This document shows, in pieces, positions 9,324 through 54,000 of a stretch of 64,000 bases of DNA; the first letter of the stretch is position 1; each line of letters opens with the position of its first letter. The DNA comes from Paramacrobiotus metropolitanus. Lineage: Eukaryota; Tardigrada; Eutardigrada; Parachela; Macrobiotidae. The stretch lies in the NCBI RefSeq assembly GCF_019649055.1, contig NW_026570305.1:496001-560000 (forward strand). The letters are read 5' to 3'. The notes beneath the pieces were generated by a model. The model was given only the letters and a program-made list of their open reading frames with translations, ran no database searches and had not been told where the DNA came from. The translations under genes and the position numbers were made by a program.

Positions 9324-10501
9324 TCTTATCCTTCAAACCTACACCGTAAGGGCTGTACAAAATCTCCGGTCTGACGATATAATATACTTTCTCAGAGCAG
9401 TATTAGAGAGCTTGTCCACCTCAGAATCGCAGATAAATTAAAAAGTATAAAGTAAAAAACTGTACCCGGACACCAACTTTGAATTCAACTTTAGCGCAGA
9501 TTCAAGAAGTACAGTCACCGGTGAATGGGTGATTTACTTTTGCAGTGATCAACCGTTAAGATGTAATGCCGGAACGTCGTGAATGAGCATGCAATATGCA
9601 TCGCGATCGTAGTTTTTACTTTTACGTAATCGCACACTGACAATATATGTACATAGTCTAAAGCTAACAAAATTATGCCGGCTCAACAAAAGCGCCACAG
9701 TATCACGCACTATACTTTAAACATAACATAGTAAGGAATGCGTATCACTAAAATTTAACCATTTCTTCAAATTTACGCAGTGCCTATATTTGGCATTATC
9801 GCCCAAGACAATTTTCCCGGTATTCAAATATTAGAATTTCTGTACTCGTAGCCTTCCGGTACATTTTAAGAGGGGCAAACATCATACTCACCTAGCTGCA
9901 GCGTCGATATTTCTCGGAAATACACACAACTTTTCGAAAGCTGATGTAAAAATATTCCTTCGCAGGAAAAAAGCCCAAAAAAAATTCCAACTTGAATTAT
10001 TAATTGCCCACTCTCAATAAGCTAACGTGGATTTAAAATGAGGGAAGAATTCAAAGATAGTCAGTATGCACCAAACAATCGTGCCACAACACTACGATAC
10101 GCATCGTAACTGTTGCCTTATAAACATATACGTAGTTTATTCCGCACTAGATATTATTCTATTGTCACTAGATATTATTATTCTATTGTCAGCAAGTCAT
10201 GGGTTTTAGATTTTATTGCCCAAGAAAACTGATAACTGCTATTCAGTCAACAGCCGACGCAATTTTATTTCCAATACCCCCGTTTCTCCCGCCCAGATTT
10301 TACACAGACAACAAAGGACTTTCACAAATTTAAAAACTACCAAAAAATTCTCAACTACAGGGAAGAAGGTACAAAATGTAAAAAAATTAATACACACGAA
10401 AACAAATGCCACCGATATAAACAACGCCGATAGGAATTAATTATGTACATCTGAAACCTTAAAAAATGGAAAGAAAAAAGCATCACGTGAAGGGAACACA
10501 G
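9324..10501. other. Intergenic region between the Ly6 and kinase genes
   Basis: Contains the 5' flank of the Ly6 gene and the 3' flank of the kinase. The one notable element is an antisense copy of the 15-base intron motif at 10083-10097. The ORF at 10216-10440 has no splice or family support. Confidence 0.45.
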
Positions 10502-13500
10502 TTAGGCGAAGAGAAGACGCCGCTTGACTTTGGAATGCACCAGCGCCTCCCGCAGTAAATTCGGGGGACTGCGGGGCCGACTGTCCGGATCCTGCGGCAC
10601 CTGGTCGCTCTCGTCCAGACTCAAATCCAACGGCGCACCACTGCTCGCCACACTCGACGCCGAGTTCACGCTGCAAAAAAAAACTTCAATAAATACGCCT
10701 GCCTATTTTGTTCGAAACGCCGGAAAATCCGTATTTAACATTGTATTTAAACTGCAAAATATTTTGATTCAAATTGTCAACTCGCAAATACAGCGTACAT
10801 GTATGCTCCAGCCATCATATATGTACATTTCCCATTACACATAATGATAATGTTTTAATAACCGTTACATACGCGCCGGTTAAATTATGAAAGTAAACTT
10901 AGTTAAGCCCCTTCTGGTATTTAAGTACGTACACAAGTACACAGTACAACTTAGTTAAGTACACAGCTACGCCAATCCTTCAAAATGATAACTGCTTGTA
11001 ACCTCATTACTAAGAAAAATCGCAGAGTAACAAAATCCGACAACATGACAGAAAATTTAAAAAAGTGTTCAAAAATTGACGACTGAAAAATGTTACTTCT
11101 ATTCTAAAACTTTACGTTAACGGTCAAGCGGCAGAAAAAATAAACAATTTACCAGAGATAATCTGTAACTCACAGATCGTTAGATTAAAATTAATACACT
11201 GACAGGGACTACACAGGCGAAGTTATCAGCCACGACACTACGATTGCTTTTAAATTAATGATAATTTTTACGGTCAAGTTGGTTGTCGCTCCTCATTTCA
11301 GCTGTGAGCAGGTGACAACAGTCAAACTGAATCAATTTCGCATATCTCTCCTCTGGACATTACGCCAATATATCGAACAGTATGTTATGGCATGGCGAAA
11401 TCAGAACGCAAAAAAAGAAGGAGAATTCAATAAATTACTGAATTATACAATTGATGAATATGTAATAAAACAAGATCAATGAATAATTAACCACAAATTA
11501 AAATAAAAGCAGGCAGTTGTTAATCGTATACGAAGAAACCATACCAAAACTTACAGGAAATTCTGGCCGTTTTCCACCGACAGACGTTTCCGTGGCCGCT
11601 CATTAGAGCCCGGCGCTTTGGGGATGAACCCGTTCTTCTTCCTGTAGCACTCCGGAACGGGCAGTTCCGTCGGGTGACACGCCGGCGTCTCTTTATCGCT
11701 CTGCGCCAGTACCAGCAAGCACTCCTTCGCGGACAACCGTTTGGCGGCGTTAAACAGCAAACAGCGCCGGATGAGCTCCAAAATCACCAGCGGGGATTGC
11801 GGCAACACACTGGACCATGGCCGGGCTCCACACGCCGGAAACTGGATAACCACACCCCCCACGGGATACTCCGAGGGCAGCGGTGCACCGATCACCTGGC
11901 AGATGGCGTTCAGCTGGGCAATATCACAGTTACCTGCACAGCAGACGAAAATTATAACTATCAAGTACACGGTTTAGTGCAAAATTCGGGATATTGCAAA
12001 AAATTGGGATATCATTTAATCCGATTGTATAAAGCAGTTTTCTCGGTGTTAAAAAATGTAATCATTTTACAAGCTTCATTATATTAAAATTCAAATAGGC
12101 GATAGCCACCAAATTAACATTAACACAAAAGCGTTGATCAAACTGGTACTCAATAATTTAAAACTAAAAATATTTACGTCACCAGAAATTTACACCCAGG
12201 AAAACTGATATGGTTTCTTGCATCTGTATGCAGATTCAAGATGGCTCACGACAAGAAATACTGCTTATGCCACTGCACTACGATGCTTAAATAAATACTG
12301 TGGGCATATGGAAGCCAGTATGTACTGTGGACATTCGTCCTCGTACAGCCCGGCTACACAAACATTATAATATTACTATTTAATCCCAAAATAACTTCCA
12401 AAAAAACAGCAGTATCAAATGACAGAAGTGCCTTACCGACAAACAACGGTTTGCGGATGTAGAATTCGGCCGCGATGCATCCCAGCGCCCACATATCCAC
12501 AGGGAACGCGTACTCCCGCACGCCCAGCAGGATCTCGGGGGCGCGGTAGTAGCGGCAAGCGAAGGGGTTAGTGAAGGCGGCCTTGCCATTCAGCTGCTTA
12601 CTCGACCCCAGATCCCCGATCTTCACGTCCCCGTCCACGCTGACCAGCACGTTGTTGGGCTTCATGTCGCGATGGATGATGTTCTCGCTGTGGAGATAGG
12701 CCAGGCCCTGCGCGACGCCCTGCAGGTAATATTTCACTTGTCCAACTGTAAATAAAAAATACGGTTTTTCAGTTATTCATGTATATCGCTACAATTATTC
12801 AGTATTATTCTGCTTTAAAAAGCAGGCGTTCCTAATAAATAATTAACTAACTGCAAATCAAAAATACGGCTCGTTAGTTATTCCTCTACATCGTATTAAT
12901 ATCAAAATAAAAAATTATTTACGTATGCCGCTTGACACACGGTAGTGCCAAGAGGCAAGAGCCAAGAGATAATGGGCAAGGAAGTTACTCTTGCAATTGA
13001 TGAACACATTGCCGCTGTACTACGTCGTCACTCAACATTCATGAAACGTATTCGCAACTTTCACTGCGATGTTTACACTTTCTCTGTCACAATGTCAAAA
13101 ATATAAATTCATAACAAAAAATGCAATAAACCTGCGGAATATTCTTCGATTAAAGTCATTAAATAACTACACCAATTACCGGAGAAGGCCGCAATGCCGC
13201 GGTCGACGATGAGGGCCTCGAGGGTGAAGTGGACATACTCCATGACCAGCGTCTTCTGGGGTCCGTCGCAGAAGGCCGACAGCAGGCGCACGATGTTGGG
13301 GTGGTCGAGGCGGGCGAGGATCTCCGCCTCGCGGAGGTGGCAGGCCTCGCTGATGCCCAGGTGGTATCGCTCCTCCTGGCTCAGCAGGCGCAGATGCTTG
13401 ATGGCCACGATGCTGCCTTCCTGCAGGTCGCAGGCCCGGTACACCGTGGCGTACTGGCCGCGGCCCAGGATCTCCAGTTTGTGGTAGCGCCGCGGGTCCA

Positions 13501-15516: not shown

Positions 15517-18500
15517 GTGAGTAAGAATTATAAAAATGGCGTAAATAATTTTATAAATAGCTGGGAAATTTTTTGAGACGCTCTTTTAATTTTTGGAAAG
15601 TTTTAACTTTTTAGTTTCTATTTTGAATTGTAATAGTTTATTATCAATAATAGCGACTTTGCAGCTGGCATTTCTGACGTTATTTGAGCGAATAAATAAC
15701 GTGGAAATTTTTATTTATTTTCAGTGGAATCGATGCAGTTTTCTCATTTATTGCATAATTTTAATGTGACTGATTATTGCTCTGCTATTTATTATTTTAT
15801 GAATTACCATCTTGCATTTCGGAATGTTTTCAAATATTATTTTGGAAAACGACCAAGCATCATAACTGGCGATTTATTTTTTAAATAAATTTAATTGATA
15901 ATAAATATGCACGCTTTATTTAATTTTTATTGGAATTTATGATCGGTAAAATTATCCAGTTTTGTTTTGACTATTTTCGGAGGCTGAAATTTAAAAAAAA
16001 AAGCGACAGAGAATGATGTCTTTATTGTCACCAAAATGGATTTGCAGTATGCGTTTGTTTTGTAGCCAGTTTTAAAAATTTAAAGCTTTAGAAAACCAGT
16101 TTTGCCAAAAGGAACACTTGGAGCTTTTTCTAATGTGAACGAATAATCGCTTTTCCAGCATAATACGAATACACGTTGTTGTCGACCAGCATTTGCAGGC
16201 ATAACAAACAGCGTCTTGTAACAGTGTTGAAAGGGAAATGTTTAGATTGCTGGCGCTGAATCGGCGCAATCTTCGGCCAGAAGAAGTGTTATGCGGCACT
16301 TCTTTTTGTTCAATTGGTCAATTCGGCGGGGCTTGTTGAAAAACTGACATATGTTGCGGTTGCATGTTTTCTCTTTCGTCAGAAAACGGCGGGCAAAATC
16401 ACCAACGCTTCCGTACGTTCACATGGCTGATGATGAAATGACCGTTTATGTACATGTGCCTCTTCAGCAAAGTTTGACAAGTGATTTTGTAATAAACGCT
16501 ACAATTGACAGAAACGCACTGCGGTTTCATGTTGTGGCACTTTTCCCATCCAGCGGAAATAGCGAAGACACCTGCATAATAATTACGCATATGTTATTTC
16601 ATGTGTTTGTTTCCTGTTTTTAATTCTTGCGCAAGGTTCTTAAGTTTTCCCTGTCAAGCTGTAATTTATTTCTGACGAATTTTTTTTTAATTTTTTGCGA
16701 CATTTTTTCGTGTAATTGCAAGCGTCCTTGCATTTCCGGCATTATTACTAATTTTTTATCTCCGGTTCTACTTCTGTATTTTTTATTGTGTTTTTTACAG
16801 CTTCTTTCGTATTTGAATTTTTTAAAAAATGATATTTTAGAAATGTAGGATATAGAAATGTTTTTTTGGAAATAGATTAGAAAATAGAAGAAAACTACTT
16901 ATAGAAAATAGTATTTTGTTAGAAATAATTAGGAAATAATTTAGGAAATATAGTTTAGTTTTTTTCGTGTACCTTTTGGTCTTTTACTGTCGGAACGGCA
17001 TAAGCGTTACACGGTCTTTTTCAAATCCGCAAAGGCGTATTATACTTTTTGGTTTTGCCACCGTTTCTTGCTTGTTTTATCGCACGCGTTTCCGTTTCGT
17101 AATTTAATAGCCTGTGGTTATTTTTTCCAGTTCGTGTGACCTTTTTTCTCGTCGCTCGCAGTCGGTGCGCATTTTAAAACGCGATGTGGCGGTTGAGATT
17201 TGTTGGAACCGATCTGCTAATTAGTTCCGTCGTTGCTCCGTTTTTTCTCTTTTTTTCTCGTTTCGCTTTCGCTGCCAGCCGGTTGTGTAAGCGCCAAGTT
17301 GGCTAATCGGTTTGCAGAACGGAACACTGTGCGATCGCTGCCGGCACTGCGCACCGCAGAAGAAAACGAACTTTCTTTTGTTATGGATTTCTCTTCAAGT
17401 TCAACTTGACAGATATTTTCTTGTTGTTGAATAAATTTACTTTCCTCGATACATTACAGCCGGCATACATTACCGTATCCGTTGTTTGCCATGGTTATTT
17501 ACGGTGCCGGAAGGAAAACTAAACTATGTTGTTTTAAACATTATTTGCTGCTACTTTTTTGAATTCGAATCGTGTTTCGGGAACGAAAATTGTAATGCAT
17601 TAAAAAGATCGACGCTCGGTGTTTATGTGGGTTTGATAGTGGGGGCTTAGGTTTATTGGTTTTTTTTTTTATTAATTACATTAATTTTATTTGTGGGTTA
17701 CAGTGGTTTATGTGATTTTACCTCTGTACTGTCTGCTCTCAAGTCCGTAGGCTGTTTACAATTTTAAGCACTATTCGCATGCACGTTTAAGTAGGAGATC
17801 GTAGTGCAGAGGCAGTTGATCGACTCTCCGAATCCGATTCCGATTTGTTTACCTGCTTTGTTAAAACTTTACATTTGGAGCGGCACTAAACGGGTTTAAT
17901 ATTTTGCTTATCGAAAACAATTTAATTTTTAAGATTTTTGGGAATAATTACGGTATCAGGTATTCTTATTAACTGCTTTGAATCGGGAACGAGCCAAGAT
18001 TATAGGTAATATATAATTTTAAGAACTGCGAACTCGCCGCAAATTGACATCTCATATTTAATGAGAAGCATAATTATTGTCATTTTTTTGCCAGAACCCC
18101 CAAAAAATATTTAAAAGTTAAAACCGTGTCAAAGAAGCTGTGCATACAATTAAGCAACATTTCGTGGTTCTTTTTTGTGGATATGTTATTGCGAAATTTT
18201 GACATTTGGGCCGTCGTTTGTGGGGTGTCGTCACACCAACTGCCACCGCATCCGGCACGTAAATCACGTAAACAATGTGCTTCTTATCAGCAACATTTGC
18301 TTTCTTATCGTGAAATGTGTTTTCGTTGGCCTGGTTTTATTCTGGATTGATGATAACACAGAGATACAATTGGCTGGCTGCGCCGTGTGAGAAATACTGG
18401 CCGGCACCGGCGAAGAGTGGAAAAACGCTTGCTCCGTGCAGACGGTGAACTTTCCAGTCGGATGGTTATGAAGCATGTCAGACCACTCGAGCAATCTTCG

Positions 18501-21590: not shown

Positions 21591-21600
21591 GTGCGGGGGA

Positions 21601-21608: not shown

Positions 21609-21631
21609 CCTCTTAGCGTCAACCGGCACTC

Positions 21632-23245: not shown

Positions 23246-23260
23246 TCGTAGTGCAGTGGA
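23246..23260 (+). promoter_or_regulatory. 15-base intron motif, best MICAL example
   Basis: TCGTAGTGCAGTGGA in the 5' UTR intron. Other + strand copies (start positions): 17799, 24365, 26054, 28962, 30136, 30942, 31735, 34350, 35165, 36993, 37806, 40824, 41542, 44054, 45443, 47447, 49198, 52876, 53698. Minus strand copies: 10083, 11229, 12269, 13011, 27898, 32949, 42888. The consensus is roughly TCGTAGTGYAGTGGC. Function unknown. Confidence 0.7.
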
Positions 23261-23557: not shown

Positions 23558-26500
23558 ATGAGTTGCCGTATCCAGCATGCCGGCCCGGCAGCCCTCCACG
23601 GCCACCACGGGCACACCACCGCCGCCCGGGCGCACAACGTCTCCAGCTTGTCAGCCGGCGAACAGGCCCGCGCCGAGAAGCTCTTCGAGGACTTTTGTGC
23701 CGCCGTTTCTTTGAAGCACATTGTGGGATATTTCCAGCAGTTCTGCGAGTGCGTCAAGCTGCGGCCCAACGACTACCGGACCTTCTACGGGCGATTGCGG
23801 GAGCGCATGAGCTTCTCGTGGAAATGGAAGCACTTCCAGAACAAACTCGACAAACGCGCCGCCCAGAAGGAATACGGCAAGGGACAGATTTGTTCCGGCA
23901 ATAAGGTAATTAATTAATTGTAGCACCTGTTAATTAATTGTGTCTTAAGTGATGGCTGAACTTCTTCCTTTCCCTGACCTTCGCTTTTTCTATAGATTTT
24001 TGTCGAGTTTTTATTTTGCGGTGGTTTCATTTATTTTAGCCATTTTCGTGAGCATGAAGGTCCGAGGTCTGTTATCAGGAGTATGTGACAGTGGAAATTG
24101 GCAAAATCCTTTTACACTCTGCTCTGACTGCTGTTGCTCCTTTTACACTCTGTAGGATTTTGTTTCAATTTGATTTTTTGAACTTCCTTTTTTCTGATCG
24201 TGCGAATATTGAGGCATCGCTTTTCCTTCGAATACCGTAGCAATTGTACATTTCTTTTTTTCCCCTGAGAATGAATAAAAATTGAAAGTATCTAGTGGGA
24301 CAAGACCGGTCACCGCTTCATGTCAGTTTCAGAGTAGTTGGTCACTGACAGTTGTTCAGAGAAATCGTAGTACAGTGGAACATTGTTGCTTGGTTAACGG
24401 CCTAACCATCCATTCTGTATGTACATAATTTCCGGGGCGTATTGTTAACTTGTTGGTTACTGATTTGCGAAGTTTTTTTATGTGCTGATCGAACAAGATG
24501 TGGAATCGGTTTTAGAAAATATTTTATTTCTTCCCGATTGTTTTCGTATCAAAAGGCAATTAGATTGTGTGTTTTTGAGTGCAGATGTATTTTTTCGGTG
24601 GAGTGCGATGATGAGTGTTTTGGGATGGCTCGGTGGTGTCTGTTTGTGAGCAAATATATATCGGTTAGTCGGTTAATCGCGGCTTAAGTCGGCGCGTGTG
24701 TGTGAGAGCGCGACGGGTTTGGTGATGCGGCCATTCGGGACTTGTTGACTGATTGCGCAAAGGGACTAGTCAGGCACGTTGTCGGCGCAATCAGCTGCTG
24801 TTGACGTTGGCGGTCAAAGAACTGCCATTATTTAATCAAGTGCAGTCCCTGCGTCGCCGCCAAGTAAAATTTATCCTCGGCGTGCGCCTCATCAACTGCT
24901 AAGAAAGCACTTGTCAGTTTATTGATTGACTTTTGAAGGGAATTCCCGGGACGGTTGCGCAATGTTTGAATTATTGGGCAATTTGTAGGGATTTTGTTGT
25001 TCAAACTACCAGAGCCACCGTTTTTTTCAACGATCTGGATAACGTTTTTTTAACATTCGGCGATACAAATTTTACAAATTTGAAACAAATCAAGGACTTC
25101 AAGAGATATTTGAGTGTGGTCGTTAAATTATGTTTAAACTATTTAAATCATTTAAAATTGCGCCAAATTGTGTACAAACTTACGAAAACAATTAATCAGA
25201 ATTTTAAATACTTTTTTGGATTGATCTTGTTCTGCATTTGCTTTTACGCAGTTTTCTTTCCAGGTTTTAATTGTGGGCGCTGGACCGTGCGGCTTGCGAA
25301 TGGCCGTTGAAGCGGCGTTATTGGGCGCCAAAGTCGTTGTTGTGGAAAAGCGCGACCGGTTTTCCCGCAATAATGTCCTGCATTTGTGGCCGTTTGTGAT
25401 CACTGATCTCCTCAATTTGGGTGCCAAAAAATTCTACCCGAAATTCTGCAGCGGAAACGTCGATCATATAAGTGAGAGCCGAATATTTTTGTTAACACTG
25501 TTGCAACGGAATTAGGTTATTTATCAGTTCTTCAAGAGGACACATTGCCGGATATATTATTTGAGTTTCTATTATGTTCAGGATTTTGGAACATGTCCGT
25601 ATGCTTGTTAAAATGCATTATGAATATGATACTCGATTTATTCCCTCGATACTACATTTATTTTTATCACAGGTATTCGGATCCTACAGTGTATTCTGCT
25701 GAAAATGGCCCTGCTTTTGGGCGTGGAATTCCACTACGGTGTATCCTTCATCAATTACATCGAACCGCCGGAATACGACGGTGCCGATTGCACGGGGTGG
25801 CGGGCCGAAGTCCATCCGGCGGACCACACCGTGGCCAGTTACGAGTTCGACGTGCTGGTGGGCGCCGACGGACGGAGGAACACGCTGCAGGGATTTCAGC
25901 GCAAAGTCTTTCGCGGGATGCTGGCCATTGTAAGTTCACACACTGTTTCGGTGACGAGTTTATTTTCCATTTTTAACGAAAATACGCTACGTAACGCTTT
26001 CAGAAATCTTGCGTTTTCATTATTAATGTTTGCTACTCTGTTACATCCAGAAATCGTAGTGTATTGGCGCGAGATCCGGAATTGGCTCGAGATCCGGAAT
26101 TTGAACGTTCTAATTTGAAATTCCTTGATGTAATATTTTCAGAATGAGCTTCGATAAATGGTTGTTCTTTCAATTTTTCCCTTGAAGTTCGGTTTTTTAA
26201 AATGGCAGGAATTTTGCTTTGCAGGCAATAACAACTAATTTCATCAATCGGAACACGGCGGAGGAGAACCGGGTGGAGGAGATCAGCGGCGTGGCGCGCA
26301 TCTACAACCAACAGTTCTTCCGCGATCTGTACAACGACTGCGGCATCGATCTGGAGAACATCGTCTACTACCGCGACGCGACGCACTACTTCGTCATGAC
26401 GGCCAAGAAGGCCAGTCTCCTGGCCAAGGGCGTCCTCAGACAGGTACGCGTAACATTGGGACGGTTGCAGAATGCGGTACTCATTAAAGGCGAATAAAAT

Positions 26501-29500
26501 CGAAAGGCGCATGATGTTTTCTTCTATGCCCGTTGCACGTTCAGAAGCACAGTGCGTGCCGCTAAATGGCGACGGAGTGAAGGAAACTATTGTAGAATGT
26601 AGATTACGGGCTCGTGAAATTATTCATCGGATATTCCGAATGGAATGGGAGACGTTATATTAAAAATAATTCATTGATGTCTGTGCTCGAAAGAAAATTT
26701 GGTTTCGTTAGATTTTTATTTTTACTCTTATACTAAATTCAACATTTGTTGACGGTTTTTATCTTTCGGGTTCTTTTTGTAGGATTTTATGGAAGTTGAA
26801 AAGCTATTGCATCGCGACAACATCGACAGACAAGCCCTCAACAACTACGCGCTGGAGGCCGCCAAATTCTCCACCGGCAATCGTCTTCCCGCTTACGATT
26901 TCGCCATTAATCCGCACGGCGATCCCGACGTGTCGGTGTTTGACTTTACCAACATGTACGCGGCCGAGAACGCCTGTCGCATTGTGGAACGCCGCGGACA
27001 CCGGCTGATGATCAACCTCGTTGGTGACAGTCTCATCGAGGTAACTATAAATCTGATCCTGTTCATGGTTTTTCTAAAATAATGTTATAAAAATTATTTA
27101 CAAAAGTTTGTTTTTATGGATGATAATAATTACCTTTGTGATTACTCTCCCAATGACGATCACTTTCAGATGTTGGTTAAATATCTGTGGATGTTTGTGT
27201 TATGATTTAACAACCAGTTACCATAAAATTCCATAATCATCATATGCTGTTGTAGAAGATTGGCTTTAAAGAATTGGTTCTGGTATCCAGTGCAAGTAGA
27301 TATTCCCGTTACTGTGGTCTTAAAACCCTTTAAGAGTTTATTGGATATTTTTTTTAAAAATTATTTCCGTTGGTATGAGGTTTATTTTGGGATAAAACGG
27401 GACCAGGCGCTAGTTGTAGGCTCGCTGGGATCGTGCATGTCCAGCTAATTTATTTTTCCATTCTTGTAGCCGTTTTGGCCGCTGGGCACCGGTTGCGCAC
27501 ACGGATTTCTGGGCGTTTTGGATGCGGCGTGGATGTTGCGCTTCTGGGGATTGGGAACGCGGACGCCGCTGCAGATGATTGTCGAGCGAGAGGCCATTTA
27601 CCGGAGTCTGTCCAGCATCAAGGACGAACATCTCCTGAAGAACTACTCCAATTATTCCATCGATCCCGTCTCGCGATACGTCCATATTGATATATCCAAG
27701 GCCAAGGTGCGTAGTCGGCAGAACACGAACCTTATCTCCCGGGGAATCTGTGGCATGTTATGTGGTTACATATGTCGATGTAGAACGCTGTGATGGTTGA
27801 AAAACTGGTAAAGCAAGAAAAAAAAGTTTATTCGACATTTGCATTGTAACAAATTTGTTCCCGTCACGGCGTTATGTACTATCATACTAAGCGATTTGCC
27901 AATCTACTACGATTCGCTCTCCGTAAAATCCTCCTTCGGTTGCTAAATTGTGAAAATTGGTGTACGTTGTGTAGCCTGTAAGTAAGTATTAATTGAGTTT
28001 TTCGTATTTTATTTTATGGCAAACTGACTTCGGTAATTAATAATCCTGCATAAATATGGTTGCGTTTGTTTTAATATTATTAATGGGTTTGGGCAGGCAT
28101 CAGTATTCATGTGTTGAGCAGCAGCAGAAAATGATATCTGTTGTATAGGTGTTCATCGTGCGTCATCTGCTGGACACGGACTGTCCGGAGAAAGTGGACA
28201 AGAGCGAGTTGCCGGACAACGGGCAGTGGAAGCGCACCGCCGTGACCGGGCACACGCCGAAGCGGCTGCGTCAGCGCCGGGACACCGTGTCGGAGTCGGT
28301 GCTGGTGGACTGGTGCGCCAAGGGGCTGGCCTCGCACGGCATCAGCGTCGACTCGGTCGGACAGTTCTGGGCCACGCCCCTGCCCCTCTGCGCCTTGATA
28401 CACCACTTCCGGCCGGAGTTGTTGTGAGTCTGAGTCTTTTGACCATGAAATTTCAGTTTTTAGAGTCATTTGCATTTTGTTGGTTATTATTTGATTTTGT
28501 TGTCTTGAGTTGTTCCGTTGAACTGTTACGGGTATATTTTGCTTTAAACCTGCTCCTGCTTTTGATTTAATATCGCTGTTCGTATAAATGCTGTTTCTTT
28601 GATTTAATTATGTTTTGCAGAGAAAATTATTACACCTTGGACACGGCAGACGAAGAAACGACGTGGAATCTAGTGAGTTGCAGTAATTTCGTAAAGTACG
28701 GTGTTCGAACGAAGTTCACTGACGAAAATATTCGTTGTGAACATCTCTTAAAGTACACGTTCTGTGTAGATTTTGACCATCTGCGAGAACCAGCTGGGCA
28801 TCGAAGTGCCTTTTACTGCGGCACAAATCCTCCGCGAACGCGAGAACATCGACCGGGAGGTGTTCGGCACGTTACTCCTGCAGTTCTACGACCTGTTCCG
28901 ACGGGAAATACCGGGCGGTGAGTAGAGCCATGATGCAGCACACCGTTATACGTATGGAGCATCGTAGTACATTGGCTTGAGGGATATTTTGAGGCTGTAT
29001 AAGGAATGCATGTACACAAGTATTAAATATGTATTGCAGTGTGGTTCCTGTTTTTTTTTGCTTTTCTGGTGTGATTTCGTCATCTGCGCACAGGTTTTAA
29101 CGGGAAATAATCTTGAATTTGATTTAGACCGTTCCTAGTAGTTAAGTAGAAAAAAGAATTGTTTGAGATAAATATAGATGTAAGAAAACACAGTGAAAGC
29201 TGGAGAACTTATCCCAGGATTTTTTCCGCTTTGCAGAGTTCGTCGCCAATGTCACCATGGACTCCTCGCCCTCCCTGGAAGCCGACCTGCCCCGTCGCGC
29301 CCCCGCTTTCAGCCGGAAAACACCCAGCAGTCCGACGCCAGCGTCGCCGGTTAGCAGCAAACGACGGGTGAGGCATAGGTCACGGTTTGAGTGTGTCTTG
29401 GTGTACGTCGCCTTACTGGCGCTAGTCTGGCTGTATGTCTGTGATCCCTGCCCGCTTGGCGGTCAGCCGCCTCTCGAGAATGCCCACAGACTCGAAACGC

Positions 29501-36300: not shown

Positions 36301-36336
36301 ATTGTTATGAGTGAAACTGTGATAAAGAATTGCAGG

Positions 36337-36890: not shown

Positions 36891-38452
36891 AATTCTTCGT
36901 TTCGTTTTTCCTGATGAGAGGAAGTATTTTTTGGAATGCAACCCTGCATTTTTCAGTGCATTGATTTCCTAGTATGTAGGTACTCAGAGATATCGTAGTG
37001 CAGTGGAACAGTATGGCCGAATCGATATCGATCGCCGTATTGAATATTCGTGCATACAGTACATGCGTGAATGCATGGAATTTCCGGACAGATTTTCAGC
37101 TGGTTTGTGTATAATTTTTTAATGTGTTCACTGCTGCGTGTAAGTGCTCGTAAGCTAAGCTTAACAGAACCGGACGTTCTACGGGCACCTACGGGAGCGC
37201 ATGAGCTTCTCGTGGAAATGGAAGCATTTCCAGAACAAACTGGATAAACGCGCCGCTCAGAAAGAGTACGGCAAGGGACGGATTTGTTGCGGCAATAAGG
37301 TATTCGAATAACTGTAGCACTTGCGGATCGTTTTCAGCTACATGTGGCTGAAAATGTTTTTCCTTTCCCAGACCTTCGCTTTTTCACATGATTTTTTTCG
37401 AGTTTTTTTTTGCGGTAAATTCATTTATTTTTGTCATTTTAGTGAGCATGAAGGTCTATTTAAAGGAGACAGAGGTTCGTTATTAGGTGTGTCACGCGTG
37501 TCACGCGTGTGACGTGTGGCGTGTGACTGTTAAAACTGGCAGTATCCATTCACACTGTGCTGCAGACTGCTGCTGCTCCTTTTACACTCTGCAGGATTTC
37601 ATTTCAATTTGATTTCTGAAACTTCTTTCTTTCTGGTCGTGCTAATATTGAAGCATCACTTTTCCCTCGAATACCATAGTTTCACATTTCGTTTTTCCTG
37701 AGAATGAATAAAAATTGAAAGTATTTAGTGGCACAAGACCGCTCACCGCTGCATTGTAAATTTCATGGCAGTCTATTAGTAACAGGTACTCACAAGTCAG
37801 AGATATCGTAGAACAGTGGAACATGTTCGCCCGAACGACAATGCAGTTTGTGCATACTAAATGTCCGGGCTTGATGTCAACTGCTAGTGATGGGTAATGA
37901 ACTGCAAAGTTTTTTTGTTGTGCTAAGCGAACAGATGTGGAATCGGCTTTGGCAGAAAATATTCTACTTATTTCTTCCCGATTGTTTTCGTATCAAGAGT
38001 TTGATAAACGGCACTGATAAACGTTCTAACATTGAATTTAGGCGATACAAATGTTAAAACACTGGAACAAATTAATGACCTGAAGAGATCTTTGCGAATG
38101 GTTGTTAAATTAGGTTTAAACGATTTAAGATAATTTAAAACTGCGCCAAATTGGGTACAAACTTCAGACGACAATTAATGAAAATTTTTAATAAGTACTT
38201 TTCTTAGTTGCTTGTGTTTCGCGTTTGTTTTTACGGGGTTTTCTTTGCAGGTTTTAATTGTGGGCGCTGGACCGTGCGGCTTGCGAATGGCCATTGAAGC
38301 AGCGCTGTTGGGCGCCAAAGTCGTTGTCGTGGAGAAACGCGACCGGTTTTCCCGCAATAATGTCCTGCATTTGTGGCCGTTTGTGATCACTGATCTCCTC
38401 CAACTGGGTGCCAAGAAATTCTACCCGAAATTCTGCAGCGGAAACGTCGATA

Positions 38453-40159: not shown

Positions 40160-42433
40160 GATGATTGACCTCGTTGGTGATAGCCTCATCGAGGTAACCA
40201 AATGAAAATGCCGTTTGTTCAAAATTTTGGATAAAAAAGGTGTTGGTTCAGTGGCGATCACGTTCCAATCTTAGCTACCTCACTATACCATAGAAAATCC
40301 ATTAACCATAGAAATATAAAATGGACTTTCTATGACTATACTGTGAATTAAACACCAGCTTGCCTTAAGAATCCGCAGTCGTCATGTGCTGTTGTAGAAA
40401 ATTGGCTTAAAAGAAGCATTTACATGTATGTTCGTCATTGCTAGTGGACATTCCAGTTGATGGTGATTTTGATTCTGTGAAAGTTAATGGTTCATTTTTT
40501 CTAAAATTAAGTAATTCTGCTGCCGTCAGATTTGTTTTGAGAAATAACATTACACTGGCGCTGGAAATGGGAAGCGGGAGGGGAGCTGGTGAAGTTGGTG
40601 GTGGTTCAAGACAGGAAAAGGTACGGTGAAAAGCAGCGTGAGAAGTGTAATCACAGTTGTGCTTAAACCAAATAAACTTATCATAAATAATTGATAATGA
40701 GTGATAATTATTGAGCAATTAATAATTGATAATAAATAATTGTTAATAACTAAATACTTTATTTATGGATGGGTTACTTACCTTTAGATAGGCGCAGTCG
40801 TGTTAACCATATGTGGTGATATGTCGTAGTGCAACGGCTTTAGTGTTGTTTGAACCAACCATTAGCCAGAAATCAATTCTGTAAAAATCTGTTCTGTAAA
40901 AATCTGTTAATCTGTTAACGTCTGCTATATGTTGCTTTTGGATTTTTTACCCTGTTTCTTGCCCGAATTGACGTTAAACAGTTTTTTTATCCCGGCCTGT
41001 ATGATCTGTAATACTGAATAATTGATAACTGAATCATTTTTTACTTCGTTTTAACTTCGTCGCTTTCTGATATCGTTTTATGTTTTATAATACTTTTGGC
41101 TTTGGTGTATTTACTTTGGTATTTTAACTATTTTCCGTACGATGGATCCGCTTTATCGCGCTCCCCCGCGGTCACGGCACGGTGTCGAGCATGGCCGACG
41201 ACTACCTCAACGTCATCAACATCGCCCCGGTGGCATCCGGCCTCTCGCCGAAGAAGTCGCCCGTCTCGCCGCACAACCTGACGACGGTGCAGGCGTCCAA
41301 CAGCGAGTGCTACTTCTGCCACAAGCGCGTGTATCTGGCGGAGAGGAAGTCGGTGGAGGGACTCTTCTTCCACCGCACCTGCTTCAAGTGCCACCACTGC
41401 AACAAGTTGCTGCCCTTGACGGGCGACTACAGCTTCGACCGGTAAGAACAGGGCAAATTGTAAAAAAATTATTGCTAGATTTTTTGTTACTCTCTTTTGT
41501 GCGCTGCTCTGAAGAATGGTATCCATGTAAAAGTGTAGAGATCGTAGTGTGGTGGCAATAATAAAGTTGGACGAAATGTTGTTACCACTAATAGTGCATG
41601 TTTTCTTGGCGGACAACAATTAGTATTGATTTTGAATTGTTTTTCTCCAATTTCGGTCGATCAATTTGGCATGTTTTTGATGTAGTTTTATCTGTATAGC
41701 TACGATCCCGGTGGCGCGAAATTCTACTGTCCGGCGCACTTCAAATTTTGCAAGCACGACTTCACTCTCTTGCAATCCCCGCAGAAATCCTCCCCGCTCC
41801 CTTGACCCCGCCCTCCGCCGTCCCCTCCCCCTTGCAGCACTTCCAGCGCTTCCCCAGCCGCGAGGATATCCTCTGCGCCTCGCCGGTGCCCTCGCTGGCC
41901 TCGTCGCGCTACCTGGACGACGACGACAGCGGCGAGGACGATCTGGACGAGGACAACGTCCTGACGCACAACTTCGGCGGGACGACCATCGAGACGGGCG
42001 GCGGCAGTGCCTCCGACAGCGACGACATGGAGCGCGTCATCGACGGCGACGCGGCGGAGATGGAGGTGGAGGAGTGGCGGAGGAAGCGGGTCGGCAAGAT
42101 GCTGCGGGAGCGCGGGGAGTCTGGGTCCAACACGGACAGCAGCTGGGAATCCGGTTAGTACCAGTAAAAAAATGAGTAAAATTTAGTTGTATTCGAGCAG
42201 TAATTAGATATGAAGCATCTTATGTTGTTTTTTTGTCTTGATTGCCCAAAAATTCTAGAAAAAATTCTTGGTTAGCTGTGCCACAAACATTACTCGATTA
42301 AGCGTGAGCGCGCTGATTGACCGCTTAATCGAATAGTTGTTTTCGTTTGTGGCCCAGTTGAACAACAAAATTTTAGGAAAGGGATGCTGTACGATGGAAA
42401 CAAGCTAAAGTTAAACCGCTGTACTCAGCTTAA

Positions 42434-42597: not shown

Positions 42598-44230
42598 TAA
42601 ATTTCTTCAAATCGCAGTTCTGGTTGCTGTCGCGCTGCCCATTGAGGCGTTCTACTTATTGTCAGTACAGTACACTACACAACAATTTTTTGTCTGGTCA
42701 CTAGAGTTCGTATTTCTTTAACTATGAAAAACGTAGAAGTACGAAAATCTCAAGTCCAGAATAATTTATTATTTATATGTGGAGGAAAAATAACCCAGTT
42801 CAATAAACCAAGTGAAAATCAATTCATCGTACCGCAAGATTCAAGTGATAGCGACAGCTTATCTGTCCAACGGTAACAGACACTGTAGCCACTGTACTAC
42901 GAATGACGTGGTCTTGTACGATTTCGCTATTGCTGTAAAATGGTTAAGTACTCTTTATTGCATCACAACTATGTGCTTTTTGCAGGAGAACCAGTTCAAA
43001 ACGCGTACGACGACTCCTCGGAACCTTTATGCAACGCGTACGATTCTTCCTCGGACGATTCCGACTCGGACGCCGACCTCCCGGCTACCGTGGTTAAAGT
43101 GCCCTCCGAGCAGCGGCCAGCATTATCTCCGCCTCCCACCCGCTTCCGCTTCGATATCTTGCCGCACTCCTCCGAAAAACCCCATCTTAACGATCTGCAC
43201 AATGTGCCAACCATTTTCGCCAAAGATTACACTCAGTCGCGCAGTTCCCCGCTGACCTCGGTGCGGTCGGACGAAAGCGACACCTTCTTCACGCCCAAGT
43301 ACTCCTTGTCCCCCCAACCCACCTTCCCCTCTAGAAAACCCGAGATCAAATGGGATCAGACCGTCCTGGAGACCTCCCGGCGTCTGCGGGAACTGCGGAT
43401 GACCGGGCGGGACACGCCCAGTCGGACGGGCTGCGAGTCGGCCGACGACGTCTTCCACACACCGCGGACGTCCTTCCACGAACGCGACGCCGAGTACCGC
43501 CCGGGCACTAGCGAGTCGAAAGTCTCCGAGGGGTCCGACGGGGGTTCCCGTAATTACGGGAACAACTTGGTCCCTTTGGGAAGCGGACGGATCCGGTGAG
43601 CCGGAAGTTGAGTTTCGATAGTCCGCCGCGCGAAGACCGCAATCAGGTGAAACAGCGGCTGTTGAGTGCGACGCAGGAGCGGAAGGCGGAGGCGCGGGCG
43701 AGGGCCAAGCTGAAGACGGACGAGGAACTGAAACGCAACAGTCGACTAAGGGGATCGTCCAGCTCGGAAGGGAGCGACGCGAGACGGACGTCTACCGGCG
43801 TTAAAGTGATGGTGGGCGGGGCGCTGAAGGCAGTGGATAGTTCGTCATCGGACGATGCGGTAAGTCAGCAAATATCGTGCATTCGTCTGTTTTTCACACG
43901 CGCCTCTATATTCGTTTCTTCGGTTTTTTAAATTCGTATTCGAATAACTTCAGTGAAATGGTTTACGTTAATGAACGATAAAGCTAGCTTTGCGGTTCCG
44001 GCGTTTTTTTCTCTCTACGAATTTTGTGGACGCTACTGTTTTATTAGCAGCTTTCGTAGTGTCATGGCTATAACGTCGTATTGTGCGTTTTCTTTGCAAT
44101 TTAGTCATCGTTTACCGCAGTTAGATTGGAAAAATAACAGAAACAATTATTACGTTTTTCGGTAACTGTCGATCTGGCATATGTATCTCCTTCAGTCGCT
44201 ACGTTTGTAGTATTTTTAATCGTACGGGCT

Positions 44231-45216: not shown

Positions 45217-46587
45217 ATGGCATTTCTTCGGTACATATGTAGTTTGTACTCGCTTAATGATACTTATCGAAGTTCCTGTATAATGTCTTTTACTTTCTCA
45301 ACGTTTTCTCGCAGGCGGTGGTTGGCGTGGGTAATTCCAATCCGTGTTTTCTAATTAATTTTCGTCTAGTAAAAGTTGAATTCATTTTGGGTTGTCGCAG
45401 ACGATTAACATTGCTGCAGTCGGATGTGAAATATAACGAATATCGTAGTGTAGTGGCAGTTTCCACCTAGAGCTGTTGTTCTGAAATTTAAGCTGGAACA
45501 CGAAGATATATTGCGGACGCTGCAAGCGGAATGTGTTGACTAGATTAATAGGTTTTGGTATTTTTCTGCCGTTGTTGTCGCGCATGCAGTTCCACTTCAT
45601 TTTTGCTGTAGCTGAAATGCCGTTTTGTTGATGCAGGGCGGAGAAACTGCAGCTGGAAGACCGGGCGCGGCGCGCTCAAGAACAACTGCGTCTGTTGATG
45701 GGCATCGACGACAGCCAAAAGAACGACGAGCAGAGAGCAGACGAGGCGCGACTGATGAACGAACTCATGGATATTCGCTATGCCAAAATGGACAACGAAG
45801 AGAAACTGAAGCGGCTGCCGGCAAGGTCAGTTACGGGTTCAAAACATCATTGCGATGAACGATAAGGTTACGTACATTTTTACCATTATTTACGGTACAT
45901 TGTTTTAATGGAAGTTTTAACTTTTTTTGTGAATTAGTTTTTTACTGACGGAAACTAGAGTGTTTTTAGTGTACTTTAGCGTAAGAATTTTACGCTCTAT
46001 TGTTTTTTATTATCTTTTCGCTGTTTCTTGCAGGTCGGGAAACGCTTCCGTTGTGAGTGTCCGCTGAAGCGATCTGGATTTGATGGACTGAATTCAAGCG
46101 GCGCTTGATCGTTTTTGTAATGTTAATTTTTAGAATTTCTAATAATTATAACTTTCCACTGAGTTTCCATTCCCCGATGGATTTCGGTATTTTGTGATGG
46201 AGTGCTCAAATTGCGAAACTGATTTCGCCGTTGTTTGCCAAGATGTTGTGAATACCGTGCAATGCATTTGCTGTGTACACAGCATGACGCTGACCAGTTG
46301 TTTGTCCTTGTTGACCTTTCCACTCTATTCTGCGATGTCGCGTAATCGGCCTTTGATTTCGGTTGTTTCCGCCGGTTTTGTTTTCTATTATTAATTTTGA
46401 TCTTGTTTTTGTGATGTTCGTCGTTGATTTCCTTTCACATTTTTGTACAATTTCCCCGCTGTTGGTTGCATCTTCGTACCAAATGAGTTCGAGCTGCGAA
46501 ACACTTTCAGCGAACTGATAGAACCGTGAATAAAAGCAGAATAAAACTGGTTTGTTATGAGCGAAACTGCGAAAAAGAAACACTGAA

Positions 46588-46985: not shown

Positions 46986-47734
46986 CATGCGACTATTTAC
47001 AATGTCCTGTAAATGTTTGACTGACATAACCGAAGTAGAATTTGACAGATGAGTTGCCGGTGTTGATAAATGATAACATGAGTATAATAACTGTTTTGGT
47101 TTCACTAAACGAAAGTTTTCTTATATTTGCTTTTCTCGCAGATTTGTGAATGAACGAGTCATTTCGGCAGCTACAGCGTGATTGACGATGAGTTGCCGAA
47201 TCCAGCACGCCGGCCCGGCAGCCATCCACGGTCACCACGGGCACACCACCGCCGCCCGGGCACACAACGTCTCCAGTTGGTCAGCCGGCGAACAGGCCCG
47301 CGCCGAGAAACTTTTCGAGGATTTCTGTGCGGCTAATTCGTTGAAGCACATTGTGGGATATTTCCAGCAGTTCTGCGAGTGCGTCAAGCTGCGGCCTCAA
47401 TTTTTCAGGGCAATTGGTTACTAATAGTAACAGGGATTTGGAGAAATCGTAGTACAGTGGAACAGCACGGTTCAAGTGGTCTTGTAACCTACTTACATGC
47501 TGAATGTCCGGGCGTATTACCAACTAACTGGTTGGCTAAGAATTTGCAAATTTTTTCAATGTCCTAAGCGAACAGTTGGCTTTGCAGAAAATATTTTATT
47601 TCTTCCCGATTGTTTTCGTATCAAGAGTCGGTAAGATTGGTGGTGTTTTCAGTTTTGGTGTAGATTTATTTTTTTTAGGTGGTTTGATGATGAGAGTTTT
47701 GGGATGACTCGGTGGTGTCTGTTTTTGAGCAAAT

Positions 47735-48015: not shown

Positions 48016-50814
48016 TCCCGGGACAGTTACGTAATGTTTGAATTAACGGGCATTTTGTAAGGGATTGTGTTGTTTAAGTTACCAGATCCGTCGATTTGTT
48101 CGACGACTCGACACTGACAATATTTCCAACATTCGAGTTAAGCGATACAAATTTTTTAACAAGTTTGAAAAACTCAAACACTTCCAGAGATTTTGCGAGT
48201 GGTTGTGAAATCAAGTTTAAATGATTTAAATTAATTAAAATTGCGCCAGTATGTGTACAAACGTACTTCAGACGACAATCAATCAAAATTTTTAATACTT
48301 TTTTTAATTGCTTGTGTGGTGCATTTGTATTTTCGGGATTTTCTTTCCAGGTTTTAATTGTGGGCGCTGAACCGTGCGGCTTGCGAATGGCCATTGAAGC
48401 GGCGTTATTGGGCGCCAAATCGTTGTTGTGGAGAAACGCGACCGGTTCTCCCGTAATAATGTCCTGCATTTGTGGCCGTTTGTGATCACTGATCTCCTCA
48501 ATCTGGGTGCCAAAAAATTCTACCCGAAATTCTGCAGCGGAAACGTCGATCATATAAGTGAGTGCAATCTTGACAGTGGTTTATTTTGGTTGACTGTGTG
48601 ATATCGAAATTAAGGTGTTCGTTAATCTGGCAGTTATTCAAGAGGACACAGTGCCAAACATATTTCCTAAGAATTTCTATTACGTGAAGAATTCTTGAAT
48701 GGGTCCGTATGCTTTTTGAAAGAGTAATGAGAAGGATACTCGATTACTAACTTTAGGTTTGACTTTCTTTTTACAGGTATTAATAGCTTTTTACAGGTTT
48801 TTACAGGTAAATTCTTCATGGTATTTTGCTCAAAATGGCCTTGCTTTTGGGAGTGGAATTCCACTACGGTGTTTCTTTTATCAGTTATATTGAACCGCCG
48901 GAATACGACGGTGCCGATTGCACCGGGTGGCGGGCCGAAGTCCATCCGGCGGATCACACCGTCGCCAGTTACGAGTTCGATGTGCTGGTGGGCGCCGACG
49001 GACGCCGAAACACGCTGCCTAGGGATTTCAGCGCAAAGTTTTTCGCGGGGTTCTGGCCATTGTAAGCTGCCCTCTCTTGTGGCTATGGATTTTTTAACGA
49101 ATTTATTTTCCGTTTTTTGACGAAAATACGCTCAGTAATGCTCTCACAAATCTTGCATGTTTGTTATTGATGCTCTCAATTCACTGAGATCGGGGAATCG
49201 TAGTGTATTGGCTCGAGAGTGGGGAACGACGTACCAGACTGTTCAGAATCTGTAATTTCATGACGCAGTATTTTCCTTGTGAGCCTCGATAATGGTTTGT
49301 GTTTTGATTTCTCCATTTGATAAGTTCGGCTGTTGTAAGCGCCTAAGCGGAAACAAATTTTTCTTTGCAGGCCACTACAAACAGTTTCATCAACCGGAAC
49401 ACGGCGGAGGAGAACCGCGTGGAGGAGATCAGCGGCGTGGCGCGCATCTACAACCAGCAGTTCTTCCGCGGTCTGCACAACGACTGCGGCATCGATCTGG
49501 AGAACATCGTCTACTACCGCGATACGACGCACTACTTCGTCATGACGGCCAAGAAGGCCAGTCTGCACGCCAAAGGCGTCCTCAAACAGGTACGCGTGAC
49601 ATGAGGATAAATGCAGATTTTATGGAAGTTGAAAAACTACTGTATCGTGACCACATCGACAGACAGGCCCTCGACAACTACGCACTGGAAGCCGCCAAAT
49701 TCTCCACCGGAAATCGTCTTCCCGCCTACGATTTCGCCATTAATCCGCACGGCGATCCCGACGTGTCGGTGTTTGACTTTACCAACATGTACGCGGCCGA
49801 GAACGCCTGTGGCATTGTGGAACGCCGCGGACACCGGCTCATGATCAACCTCGTTGGTGATAGCCTCATCGAGGTAACCAATAAAAATGCCCGTTTGTTG
49901 AAATTTTCGATAAAAAAAGGTATTGGTCCAGTGACGATCGCGTTCCAGTTTTAGATATCTCACTGGTGTTTAATTCATACTGTTGGGAATTAAACACCCG
50001 TTGTCTAAAGAAACCGTAACCATCATGTGTTGTTGTAGAAGACTGGCTAAAAGTGCCACTGTTATATCCGTTATTGCTAGTGACATTGCTGTTGATTGTG
50101 ATCTTGATTCGGTAATCTTGATTTATTAGTTCATTTTTTCGAAAATTAATTCTGAGGGCGCCAAATTTCTTTTGAGAAATAACACGACTAAGACGCTGGA
50201 GAAAAGCTCGCCGGTATCGGATTTATGCGTACCAAGTATCTGATTTGCTTTTCCCGTTCTTGTAGCCGTTCTGTTCGCTGGACACCGGTTGCGCCCACGG
50301 ATTTCTGGGCGTTTTGGATGCGGCGTGGATGTTGCGCTTTTGGGGACTGGGCACGCGGACGCCGCTGCAGATGATTGTGGTACGCGAGGCTATTTGCCGC
50401 AGTCTGTCCAGCATCAAGGACGAGCATCTGCTGAATTATTCCATCGATCCCGTATCGCGATACGTCCATATTGATATATCCAAAGCAAAGGTGCGTGGTC
50501 GGCAGAACACGAACCTTGTCTCGCGGGGAAACTGTGGCATGGTCTGTGGTTATACATGCCGACGTAGAGCGCTGTAAAACTGATGAAGCAAAAAAGTAAG
50601 CAAGAAAGAAGATTTATTCGACATTTGCATTTCAACAAATTCATTCCAGTCACGGCGTTAGCAGCGATTGTTCAGCGCGATTTGCTTGTTCAGCGCGATT
50701 TGCCAATCTCCTTGAGTGCTCCTTTGGTTGTTCGTTCGTGAAAAGTGGTTTACATTGTGTAGCCTGTAAGTAGTATATCTGTATTCTTTTTTATGTAAAA
50801 ATAAATTGACTTCT

Positions 50815-51072: not shown

Positions 51073-54000
51073 TTCGGTAATTAATAATCCTGCATAAATA
51101 AGGTTGCGTTTGTTTTATTATTATTAACGTATTTAAGAAGTCATCCGAATTCGTTTGTTGAACAGCAGGAGAAAATGATTTCTGTTGTGTAGGTGTTCAT
51201 CGTGCGTCATCTGCTGGACACGGACTGCCCCGAGAAGGTGGACAAGAGCGAGTTGGCGGACAACGGGCAGTGGAAGCGCACCGCCGTGACCGGACACACG
51301 CCGAAGCGGCTGCGTCAGCGCCGGGACACCGTGTCGGAGTCGGTGCTGGTGGACTGGTGCGCCAAGGGGCTGGCCTCGCGCGGCATCACCGTCGACTCGG
51401 TGGGGCAGTTTTGGGCCACGCCCTTGCCCCTCTGCGCCTTGATCCACCACTTCCGGCCAGAATTATTGTGAGTTTCAGTCTTTGACCATTAAATTTCAGT
51501 TGTTTGCTTTTTGTTGACTTTTATTTGACTTTGTTTACTGAATTGTTCCGTTGAACTGTTCGCTTGCTATTACAGATATATTTAGCTTTAAACAACCAAT
51601 ACATTAAACTGTGCATTAAATTGTAAAACTGGAGGGATATGCTGATGCGAAAGGCAGAATTGTTATGTACAGAGTATCATGTGAAATTTTTTCGTTCTTT
51701 TGGCGTGAAATTGCGTCATCTGCGCAAAGGTGTTAATGGAAAATCATCCTGAACTTAACTAACGCCGTTTCAAGTTTTTAAGTAGAAAAAATCGGGTAAT
51801 AGTTTTGAATAGAAGTTTACTTCGAAAATCGGGTGTTAAAGACAAAAGAAACAAATACTGCAAAAACATGAGTCTGAGATAAATAATGATTGTAATGTGA
51901 GGAAGTATAGCGAAGTTTTGAAAATTTTCATAACTTAAAGCTTGAAACTCAGGATTTTCTTCCGCTTTGCAGAATTCGTGGCCAGTGTCACCATGGACGC
52001 CTCGCCCTCCCTGGAAGCTGACCTGCCCCGCCGCGCCCCCGCTTTCAGTCGGAAAACACCGAGCAGTCCAACGCCAGCGTCGCCGGTCAGCAGCAAACGA
52101 CGGGTCAGGCATAGGTCACGGTTTGAGTGTGTCTTGGTGTACGTCGCCTTACTGGCGCTAGTCTGGCTCTATGTCTGTGATCCCTACCCGCTGGGCGGTC
52201 AGCCGCCACTAGAGAATGTCCACAGTCTCGAAACGCTGATGCCGTCGCGTGCCGCACCGGTTCTGATCAGTTACGAACTCCTCTTTGCTCCGCCACTGTT
52301 CGTCTAACGCACCGAATGTGTTGCTTGTTTGGGCTGGTTTGACGTGGTCGAGGGTAATTCAACGATACGTGTTTGATTGACCAATTGTACTTATTATGTT
52401 CGTGGTTACCAGTGATACAGTCAATCGGTGGTTCAAACTCAACGAAAGGTGATGTGGTTGGGAGAGCTTTGTCCATGTTTTGATTGTTCCTAACTTCCTG
52501 TTAATTTGTTCCTGTTTGTCTCACGTTGATCGTTTGGATGCTTTTTTTGTTTGGATTGCTACTCTCCGCCTGTGCTTTCCTGTTTTACTTTTGTTTCTCA
52601 TTGACTTTCCTATTAATTTTACTTTCCATTTGCTGAGCAGTGGCTCCTGACATTTCCGACGAACAGCATGATGTTGACACTTAACAGAAAAGCCTTTTTT
52701 TAATGAACGTTTCTATGTTATTGTGTACGTGACTGTTGTATTAGCACGCACTGATATTATGTAATAGCACTTGATACACTAGAGTACGATGTGAGAGTCA
52801 AAAATTACTGGAAAGCGGTTTCGTACGAACGACGTAGTCTTAAAGTGTAATGAAGTGTGTTCTGGAGAAGCGAATTTGTAGTGTTGTGGCTTCAAAACGG
52901 GGTGTTTTCTTCCCTTACAGGGCACACTGTTTCGATAATGTTCATCTAAATGGATGTTTACTCCGTCCCTTCGCTTTTTAGTACTTGGTAATTTTTATAG
53001 CAGTATCGTTGTGACTATTCGCAGTGTCGTTGCGACTAATCGTTGTGCTCGCAGTAAAATGTTTTTTTTAATTTCGTAGCACGTCACCGGTCAGGAGATG
53101 TCCAAACGCCGTCGGCCTTCCAACAAATCCGACCTGTCGCACGTTGCTTCTTCCTTATCGCACAAACACTGCACCAGCATGGACCAGATCCAGGTGAACA
53201 CGGGCGAGAAGATCAAATTCCTGGAGGCCGCCTTCAACCCGCTGCCCAGCCGAGCGCCGCCCGCCCAGTCCGGCGCCCACTGGAAGAGCAGCGACAATCT
53301 GGCCGAGCGGAAGGAGGTCATCGAGCAGAAGATCCGCGGCAGCAGTCTCCACGAGTCGGTATTAATAGAGAGTAAAGAGAAGTTCCCAGCGAAGTTGGTG
53401 GAGGAAGTGCGGAGGGAGTTCCGGGACAAGGGAGCCAAGGGGCTGGAGGGGCGGTACCCGGCGGAACTGGTTAAATTGGTGGTGTTTCAGGACAGGGAAA
53501 GGTATGGCAAAAAGTAGCGTGAGAAGTGTAATGCTGCAGCTGTGCTTAAACTAAATAACTGATAATAAATAATTGATAATTAATGATTTATTAATAATTG
53601 GAAGTTGACAATAACTAATTATTGATAATAACTAAATAACTGATGGATGGATTAACTTTAGAAAGGTGCAATCCTGTTCACCATCTGTGGTGATATGTCG
53701 TAGTGCAATGATTTTAGTGTCCTCAAAGATTATCATAAATCAGGCCTGGAAAACTTTCGTTTGCGTTATATCGCGACTAATTTTGGTTTTTTTGCCCTGT
53801 TTCTTGTCCGAATTGACGGTAAACAATTTTTCTATGCCGACGAGCATGATCCGTAATAGTGAATGATCATTGAAAATTAAATATTTTTTACTTCGTTTTA
53901 ACTTCGTCGTTTTCCCATATCTTTCTGTTTTAAATTACTTTTGGCTTTCGGTGTATTGTACCTTATTTATGCATTTTAATTATTTTTCCGTACTTTAGGA

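Follow-up and report, generated by a model that had tools for sequence, protein, structure and literature searches.

The 64,000 nucleotides of Paramacrobiotus metropolitanus analysed here (assembly GCF_019649055.1, contig NW_026570305.1, positions 496,001 to 560,000; hereafter the window) carry a 15-base motif in many of their long introns. What is this motif, and why is it retained where the surrounding intron has diverged? A preliminary description of the window had taken it for a functional site more than a dead repeat, with a polymerase signal among the options. We find support for this part of the description, while its statements on the frequency of the motif and on its relation to the gene strand are not upheld. 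The motif appears to mark the start of very short candidate RNA genes, hundreds to thousands in number, each of which ends at a run of Ts about 110 bases farther on. Its probable role is that of an internal A box, belonging to a small unit for transcription by RNA polymerase III that sits within an intron or between two genes.

Abundance of the motif

The window contains 31 matches to TCGTAGTGYAGTGGC with at most three mismatches, compared with 1.78 expected (100 shuffles, the largest giving 5). Hence, the motif initially described is real. For the following analyses we used 27 of them, leaving aside four matches with three mismatches (at 163, 21529, 53019, and 62874) to equal the earlier count. 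This cut was our choice, made before the discovery of the T-runs, and 6 of the 27 retained sites likewise carry three mismatches.

We then scanned the whole genome (169.8 Mb in 533 contigs). The strict pattern TCGTAGTRYANTGGM is present in 389 copies, 204 forward and 185 reverse, against only 2 for the reversed pattern. When up to two mismatches to TCGTAGTRYARTGGC are allowed, there are 5,642 copies, around 3,500 more than the 2,077 of the reversed pattern. The motif had been said to occur about once per long intron, which does not hold at this scale: there is one strict site per 440 kb, approximately, and the window is an exceptional hot spot, a dense cluster with 28 sites at up to two mismatches to TCGTAGTRYARTGGC where the genome rate predicts 2.1. 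The edges of the motif are sharp. The flanks are apparently unrelated at 60 strict sites outside the window, except for paralog pairs, the array pair L015/L016, and one eight-copy repeat family. Letter preferences beyond the core are weak and confined to positions -5 to -1, +15, and +18.

A T-run at a set distance from the motif

Runs of Ts are a known stop signal of polymerase III. We searched for them in 78 sites, 51 from the genome and 27 from the window, a set that excludes seven of the eight copies of a Tc1-like family as well as the arrays L015, L016, and L064 (see below). The first run of five or more Ts (T5) is found 80 to 144 bases after the motif in 63 of the 78 sites, when 10.9 are expected from nearby positions. 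Only 5 sites have a first T5 at less than 80 bases, when 17.5 are expected. Runs of five As, used as a control, show no excess (8 versus 8.8 expected). The rule holds for 25 of the 27 window sites and 38 of the 51 genome sites. From approximately 30 bases before the motif to 79 bases after it, T5 runs are nearly missing (8 starts in the 78 sites), and they peak at 80-139.

Sites outside the patterns by which the regions had been selected behave alike when they carry one or two mismatches, T5 lying at 80-144 in 4 of 6 and 12 of 16, respectively; with four mismatches the count is 19 of 79, the control rate being 14.4%. Genome-wide, the 204 forward strict sites have a T5 start at +40..69 in 8 cases, at +80..109 in 80, and at +110..139 in 91, where one site may count in two of these bins. 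We disregarded the corresponding reverse-strand counts (129, 124, 15), since a long T-run contributes more than once there. As the signal is strand-specific, it suggests that the strand of the motif is the one transcribed. The set distance, together with the shortage of T-runs before it, suggests a transcript that must not end early.

Likeness of the motif to the tRNA A box

The A box of tRNA genes has the consensus TRGYNNARYNGG and the B box the consensus GGTTCRANNCC. The core of the motif, TAGTRYARTGG, fits the A box with one loop base missing. Among 58 sites, the letters at tRNA positions T 8, G 10, and G 18 are kept in all 58, G 19 in 56, and A 14 in 48; these figures are inflated by the selection of the sites, which were picked by the motif (at most two mismatches) and the T-run. 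The letters GTAGTGTAGTGG also occur in the literature on tRNA fragments (open-licence articles of PubMed Central, PMC).

No known RNA was recognised in the sequences scanned. ARAGORN, with the bacterial code setting, found no tRNA in the window and in 37 of the 92 loci, and Rfam gave no match in the window and the 11 loci scanned. The boxes of small nucleolar RNAs (snoRNAs) are near control values in 65 sites (D box: 9 versus 5.9; C box with at most one mismatch: 3 versus 2.7; ACA: 7 versus 10.1). Motif discovery and the alignments listed revealed no clear common body sequence among dispersed units, apart from paralogs, arrays, the repeat family A, and L090/L091/L092. In motif discovery on 70 sites with a T-run in range, paralogs included, the body scores 37.6 versus 31.0 in resampled controls at width 8 and 49.0 versus 39.3 at width 11. 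The upstream region scores 40.5 versus 34.3 and 55.9 versus 41.6 at these widths. In a set of 52 sites, the values past the T-run are 48.1 (controls 32.6 and 31.8) and 64.0 (controls 50.4 and 46.1), the patterns being T-rich, and those upstream are 42.9 (38.5 and 37.7) and 60.9 (52.1 and 58.4). These weak patterns of low content, somewhat above one or two resampled controls, amount to no clear second element, which is not proof that there is none.

We also considered pairing with U1. The motif variant AGTGCAATGG is complementary over 10 bases to the U1 loop CCATTGCACT (L003-L005), probably by chance. We did not retain this candidate, as the pairing would be lost with the G-to-A change that is common at position 8 of the motif. 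The comparison with U1 and U2 genes, for complementarity or a shared promoter, was made by eye.

Tandem arrays and repeat families

Some copies of the motif belong to tandem arrays. L015, L016, L064, and L073 each consist of tRNA-like units 200-290 bases apart, with an A box, more variable than that of the dispersed units, and a T5 at +98..118, mostly near +102. Many of these units also have a B box. Of 17 units that were aligned, 16 have it at +56..60 and the other at +73, with zero or one mismatch in 16 units and two in one, in a sample drawn from 32 candidates (overlaps included) that had been filtered at three B-box mismatches or fewer. By alignment, L088 and L089 belong to the same family. 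Under the same setting, ARAGORN called no tRNA in any of these six loci, Rfam had no match in the four arrays, and no consensus fold was found in the 17 aligned units. Hence, there is no sign of a tRNA cloverleaf in the sequences covered by these searches.

Two other families carry the motif. Family A (L010, L082-L087) has seven copies on six contigs, alignable across approximately 770 bases; L010 itself contains motif-like units at intervals of about 140 bases. The Tc1-like family consists of eight near-identical copies around the motif (L011, L020, L022, L026, L038, L050, L055, L056). Five of these (L011, L022, L050, L055, and L056) look, from their sequence, like a short transposon with inverted ends. 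In this family the motif stands 31 bases downstream of a TATAAA and after the octamer ATGCAAAT, and L022 holds a stretch that by eye reads like a Tc1-type transposase.

Relation to genes and clustering

The preliminary description held that the motif follows the strand of the gene, and that a lack of strand preference genome-wide would speak against this. In the window, the motif is indeed in sense orientation in 12 of 14 independent introns (two-sided p 0.013). This bias does not clearly extend to the genome. Among 49 loci, mostly of 1 kb and excluding all eight Tc1-like copies, L015, L016, and L064, coding-like stretches are found on the motif strand only in 14, on the opposite strand only in 15, on both in 7, and on none in 13. 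A clear gene-strand preference is thus missing genome-wide and the claim is not upheld. Strandedness returns in another form, the T-run downstream of the motif on the motif's own strand, which the description had missed.

We placed 36 sites with a T-run in 13 longer stretches. Intron-like sites number 12 in sense and 6 in antisense, 6 more lie between genes on opposite strands, 12 are at an edge, and none is in an exon. Random positions are intron-like in 32% of the cases, between opposite strands in 10%, at an edge in 43%, and in an exon in 15%. As these stretches were chosen around motif sites, the densities in introns and intergenic DNA are only estimates.

Strict sites tend to cluster. Among the 100 strict sites listed, reduced to 92 by removing the eight Tc1-like copies, there are 10 neighbour pairs at less than 10 kb versus 1.3 expected, an expectation for which some contig sizes were guessed. 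The two sites are on the same strand in 9 of these 10 pairs, compared with 23 of 55 for neighbours farther apart. The same-strand bias of close neighbours may reflect local duplication; the two units of L066 align at 73% across 264 bases.

Evolution of the unit body

In 16 paralogous-intron pairs, which overlap and whose identities mix introns and exons, the mean identity is lowest at +30..+59 (44%). The region preceding the motif reaches 53-64%, and the bins between +90 and +180 reach 65-76%. For intron 11, the promoter and terminator sides align and the body does not in two of three pairs. The third pair aligns throughout at 73%, and in the seven copies of family A the body has no excess of change. 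Since both weigh against a fast-changing body, we keep this idea as a lead only. It is a rather doubtful possibility that the approximately 3,500 loci constitute a class of minimal polymerase III genes in which the A box is the sole detected promoter part, the promoter and terminator are conserved, and the body is free or the fastest part to change. Such a class would provide a genome-wide supply of individual small RNAs, in logic like the loci of PIWI-interacting RNAs (piRNAs) or guide RNAs.

A proposed minimal polymerase III gene and its rivals

The gene we propose would be minimal: an A box, around 100 bases of free sequence, and a T-run. By analogy with the C. elegans promoter UM2, the predicted start of transcription is some 10 bases ahead of the A box, and the transcript, of approximately 100-130 bases, would end at the first run of at least five Ts. 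We infer that polymerase III transcribes these putative units, and that the units of the arrays are genes of the same kind as the dispersed ones. Considering that promoter and terminator are kept while the body is not clearly shared, either the body acts by its individual sequence, or it is transcription or TFIIIC binding that is kept.

Several observations weigh against this proposal. Foremost among them is the missing B box: in dispersed units it is no more frequent than in the control, be it in the body, before the motif, or beyond the T-run, which agrees with the A-box likeness without a neighbouring B box noted in the preliminary description. In the work on UM2, both boxes are suggested to be needed in vivo, and yeast work cited there indicates that box A alone suffices in vitro (PMC2527325). 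Some array units match the B box poorly (e.g., L016 at 1799 and L074 at 732). At dispersed sites TATA is not above the control, and the bodies fold no better than shuffled sequences or their flanks (mean z of 0.10, versus 0.13 upstream and -0.08 downstream; 65 each, all with a T-run in range). The 80-144 rule is broken by 15 of the 78 sites. It does not reach significance at three mismatches (5 of 18 sites, p 0.11, control rate 14.4%), and the four omitted weak window matches fail it, one with a T5 at 43 and three with none in range, so that their inclusion gives 25 of 31. Finally, L011, the only Tc1-like copy retained in the count, has no run of four Ts up to +400, which together with the TATAAA 31 bases upstream would suit a polymerase II start better.

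Among the alternatives, an origin of the sites as remnants of an ancient short interspersed element (SINE) derived from a tRNA is unlikely; only its promoter head would still be recognisable, and the T-run would be the end of the retroposed copy. The A-box head and the locally duplicated units of L066 fit such an origin, and L092 shares its first 30-40 bases with L090/L091 amid unrelated flanks. However, a decaying repeat would not retain 15 bases nearly perfectly while losing the rest. The sharp edges of the motif, its conservation between diverged paralogous introns, the lack of a clear common body in the alignments listed, and the B box not being found are also difficult to reconcile with relics. 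A DNA site for TFIIIC or another factor, organising chromatin with no functional transcript, seems quite improbable to us. It would account for the A-box likeness, the absence of structure and of a clear common body, and the clustering of the 92 sites, but the T-run, which is strand-specific and at a set distance, and the scarcity of earlier T-runs point to a transcript that must not end early.

The remaining two explanations are less probable still. A polymerase II start-site element, suggested by the TATAAA before the motif in the Tc1-like family, is highly improbable given that TATA is not enriched at other sites and that T-runs are not known as polymerase II stop signals. Least probable of all is an RNA element of the host pre-mRNA acting in the splicing of long introns. 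It would explain the sense orientation in the window, but its distance to either splice site is not fixed (by eye) and the sense bias is not clear genome-wide, even if the 12 versus 6 of the longer stretches still leans to sense.

If the units are transcribed as we propose, small genes of polymerase III would number in the hundreds to thousands in this genome, many of them intronic, unrecognised by Rfam in the loci scanned, and seemingly independent of any B box close by. They would provide a test of whether polymerase III can be driven in an animal by an A box alone, and open the search for a class of small RNAs with nothing in common but their start and stop signals. A ready-made genome scan for this purpose is the rule of motif and T-run.

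The sites of the window

The genes hosting the sites were confirmed. The minus-strand kinase is CDK7-like, with CDK7 as the top PDB match, and MICAL has the Pfam domains Rossman_Mical and LIM, with MICAL3 as the top PDB match. The kinase has four minus-strand sites, three in introns, one per intron as described: 11229..11243 (first T5 at 103, near 11140), 12269..12283 (at 113, near 12170), and 13011..13025 (at 111, near 12914). The fourth, TCGTAGTGTTGTGGC at 10083..10097 (minus strand, T5 at 113, near 9984), is about 430 bases beyond the stop codon. On the plus strand, the site at 17799..17813 (T5 at 127, near 17926) is well upstream of the MICAL coding start, perhaps within a long intron of the 5' untranslated region (UTR).

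In MICAL copy 1, the exons obtained from the sequence and the coding score agree with the initial intron list: single sites in the 5' UTR intron and in introns 1, 3, 6, and 9-15, and none in introns 2, 4, 5, 7, and 8. On the plus strand, these are in the 5' UTR intron (23246..23260, T5 at 98, near 23344) and introns 1 (24365..24379, T5 at 108, near 24473), 3 (26054..26068, at 120, near 26174), 9 (28962..28976, at 89, near 29051), 10 (30136..30150, at 82, near 30218), 11 (30942..30956, at 85, near 31027), 12 (31735..31749, at 134, near 31869), and 14 (34350..34364, at 117, near 34467). The site of intron 15 (35165..35179, plus strand) breaks the rule, with no T5 in the range examined. Two sites are antisense, on the minus strand: those of intron 6 (27898..27912, T5 at 87, near 27825) and intron 13 (32949..32963, at 120, near 32843).

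MICAL is present in several tandem, partly mosaic copies with differing exon sets (23500-54200). Comparisons within the window bear out that the motif is retained across diverged paralogous introns. The inversion in intron 13 is kept in copy 2, at 42888..42902 (minus strand, T5 at 112, near 42790). The other paralogs are on the plus strand: 36993..37007 (of 23246; T5 at 122, near 37115), 37806..37820 and 47447..47461 (both of 24365; each at 104, near 37910 and 47551), 40824..40838 (of 30942; at 119, near 40943), 41542..41556 (of 31735; at 98, near 41640), 44054..44068 (of 34350; at 101, near 44155), 45443..45457 (of 35165; at 118, near 45561), and 52876..52890 (of 30136; at 99, near 52975). 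The paralog of 26054 at 49198..49212 (plus strand) has a late first T5 (at 160, near 49358) and breaks the rule. A decayed paralog of 30942 (TCGTAGTGCAATGAT, 53698..53712, plus strand) has its T5 at 89, near 53787. Elsewhere in the window, self-comparison revealed a tandem repeat of about 79 bases at 2473-2915.

Comparison with known systems

No report of the motif was found in the literature searched (open-licence PMC articles). The closest published system found appears to be UM2, a promoter that resembles those of tRNAs, belongs mostly to snoRNA genes, and lies inside its transcript; the transcripts start 9-13 bases before box A and end at T-runs, according to the study (PMC2527325). The two have in common a tRNA-like A box within the primary transcript, short RNA genes that are often intronic, and termination at T-runs. 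They differ in several respects. The A box of UM2 is accompanied, at a distance of 33 bases, by a B box, with the snoRNA after it, whereas our dispersed units lack the B box, are around 120 bases long, lack snoRNA boxes, and occur at many more loci.

With the type 2 genes of polymerase III (tRNA, vault RNA), the units share tRNA-type A-box letters and the T-run end, and the array units also the B box. Unlike these genes, the dispersed units are without a B box, and the loci scanned gave no tRNA call or Rfam match. tRNA-derived SINEs resemble them in having an A-box head and many dispersed copies, but here the motif is tightly conserved, with no clear common body or B box. Another comparison is with the type I piRNA (21U) loci of C. 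elegans, which have an upstream promoter motif and are transcribed by polymerase II. Like the units described here, they are numerous small autonomous units with a common promoter motif and unrelated RNA sequences; what sets our units apart is their internal A box and their T-run end.

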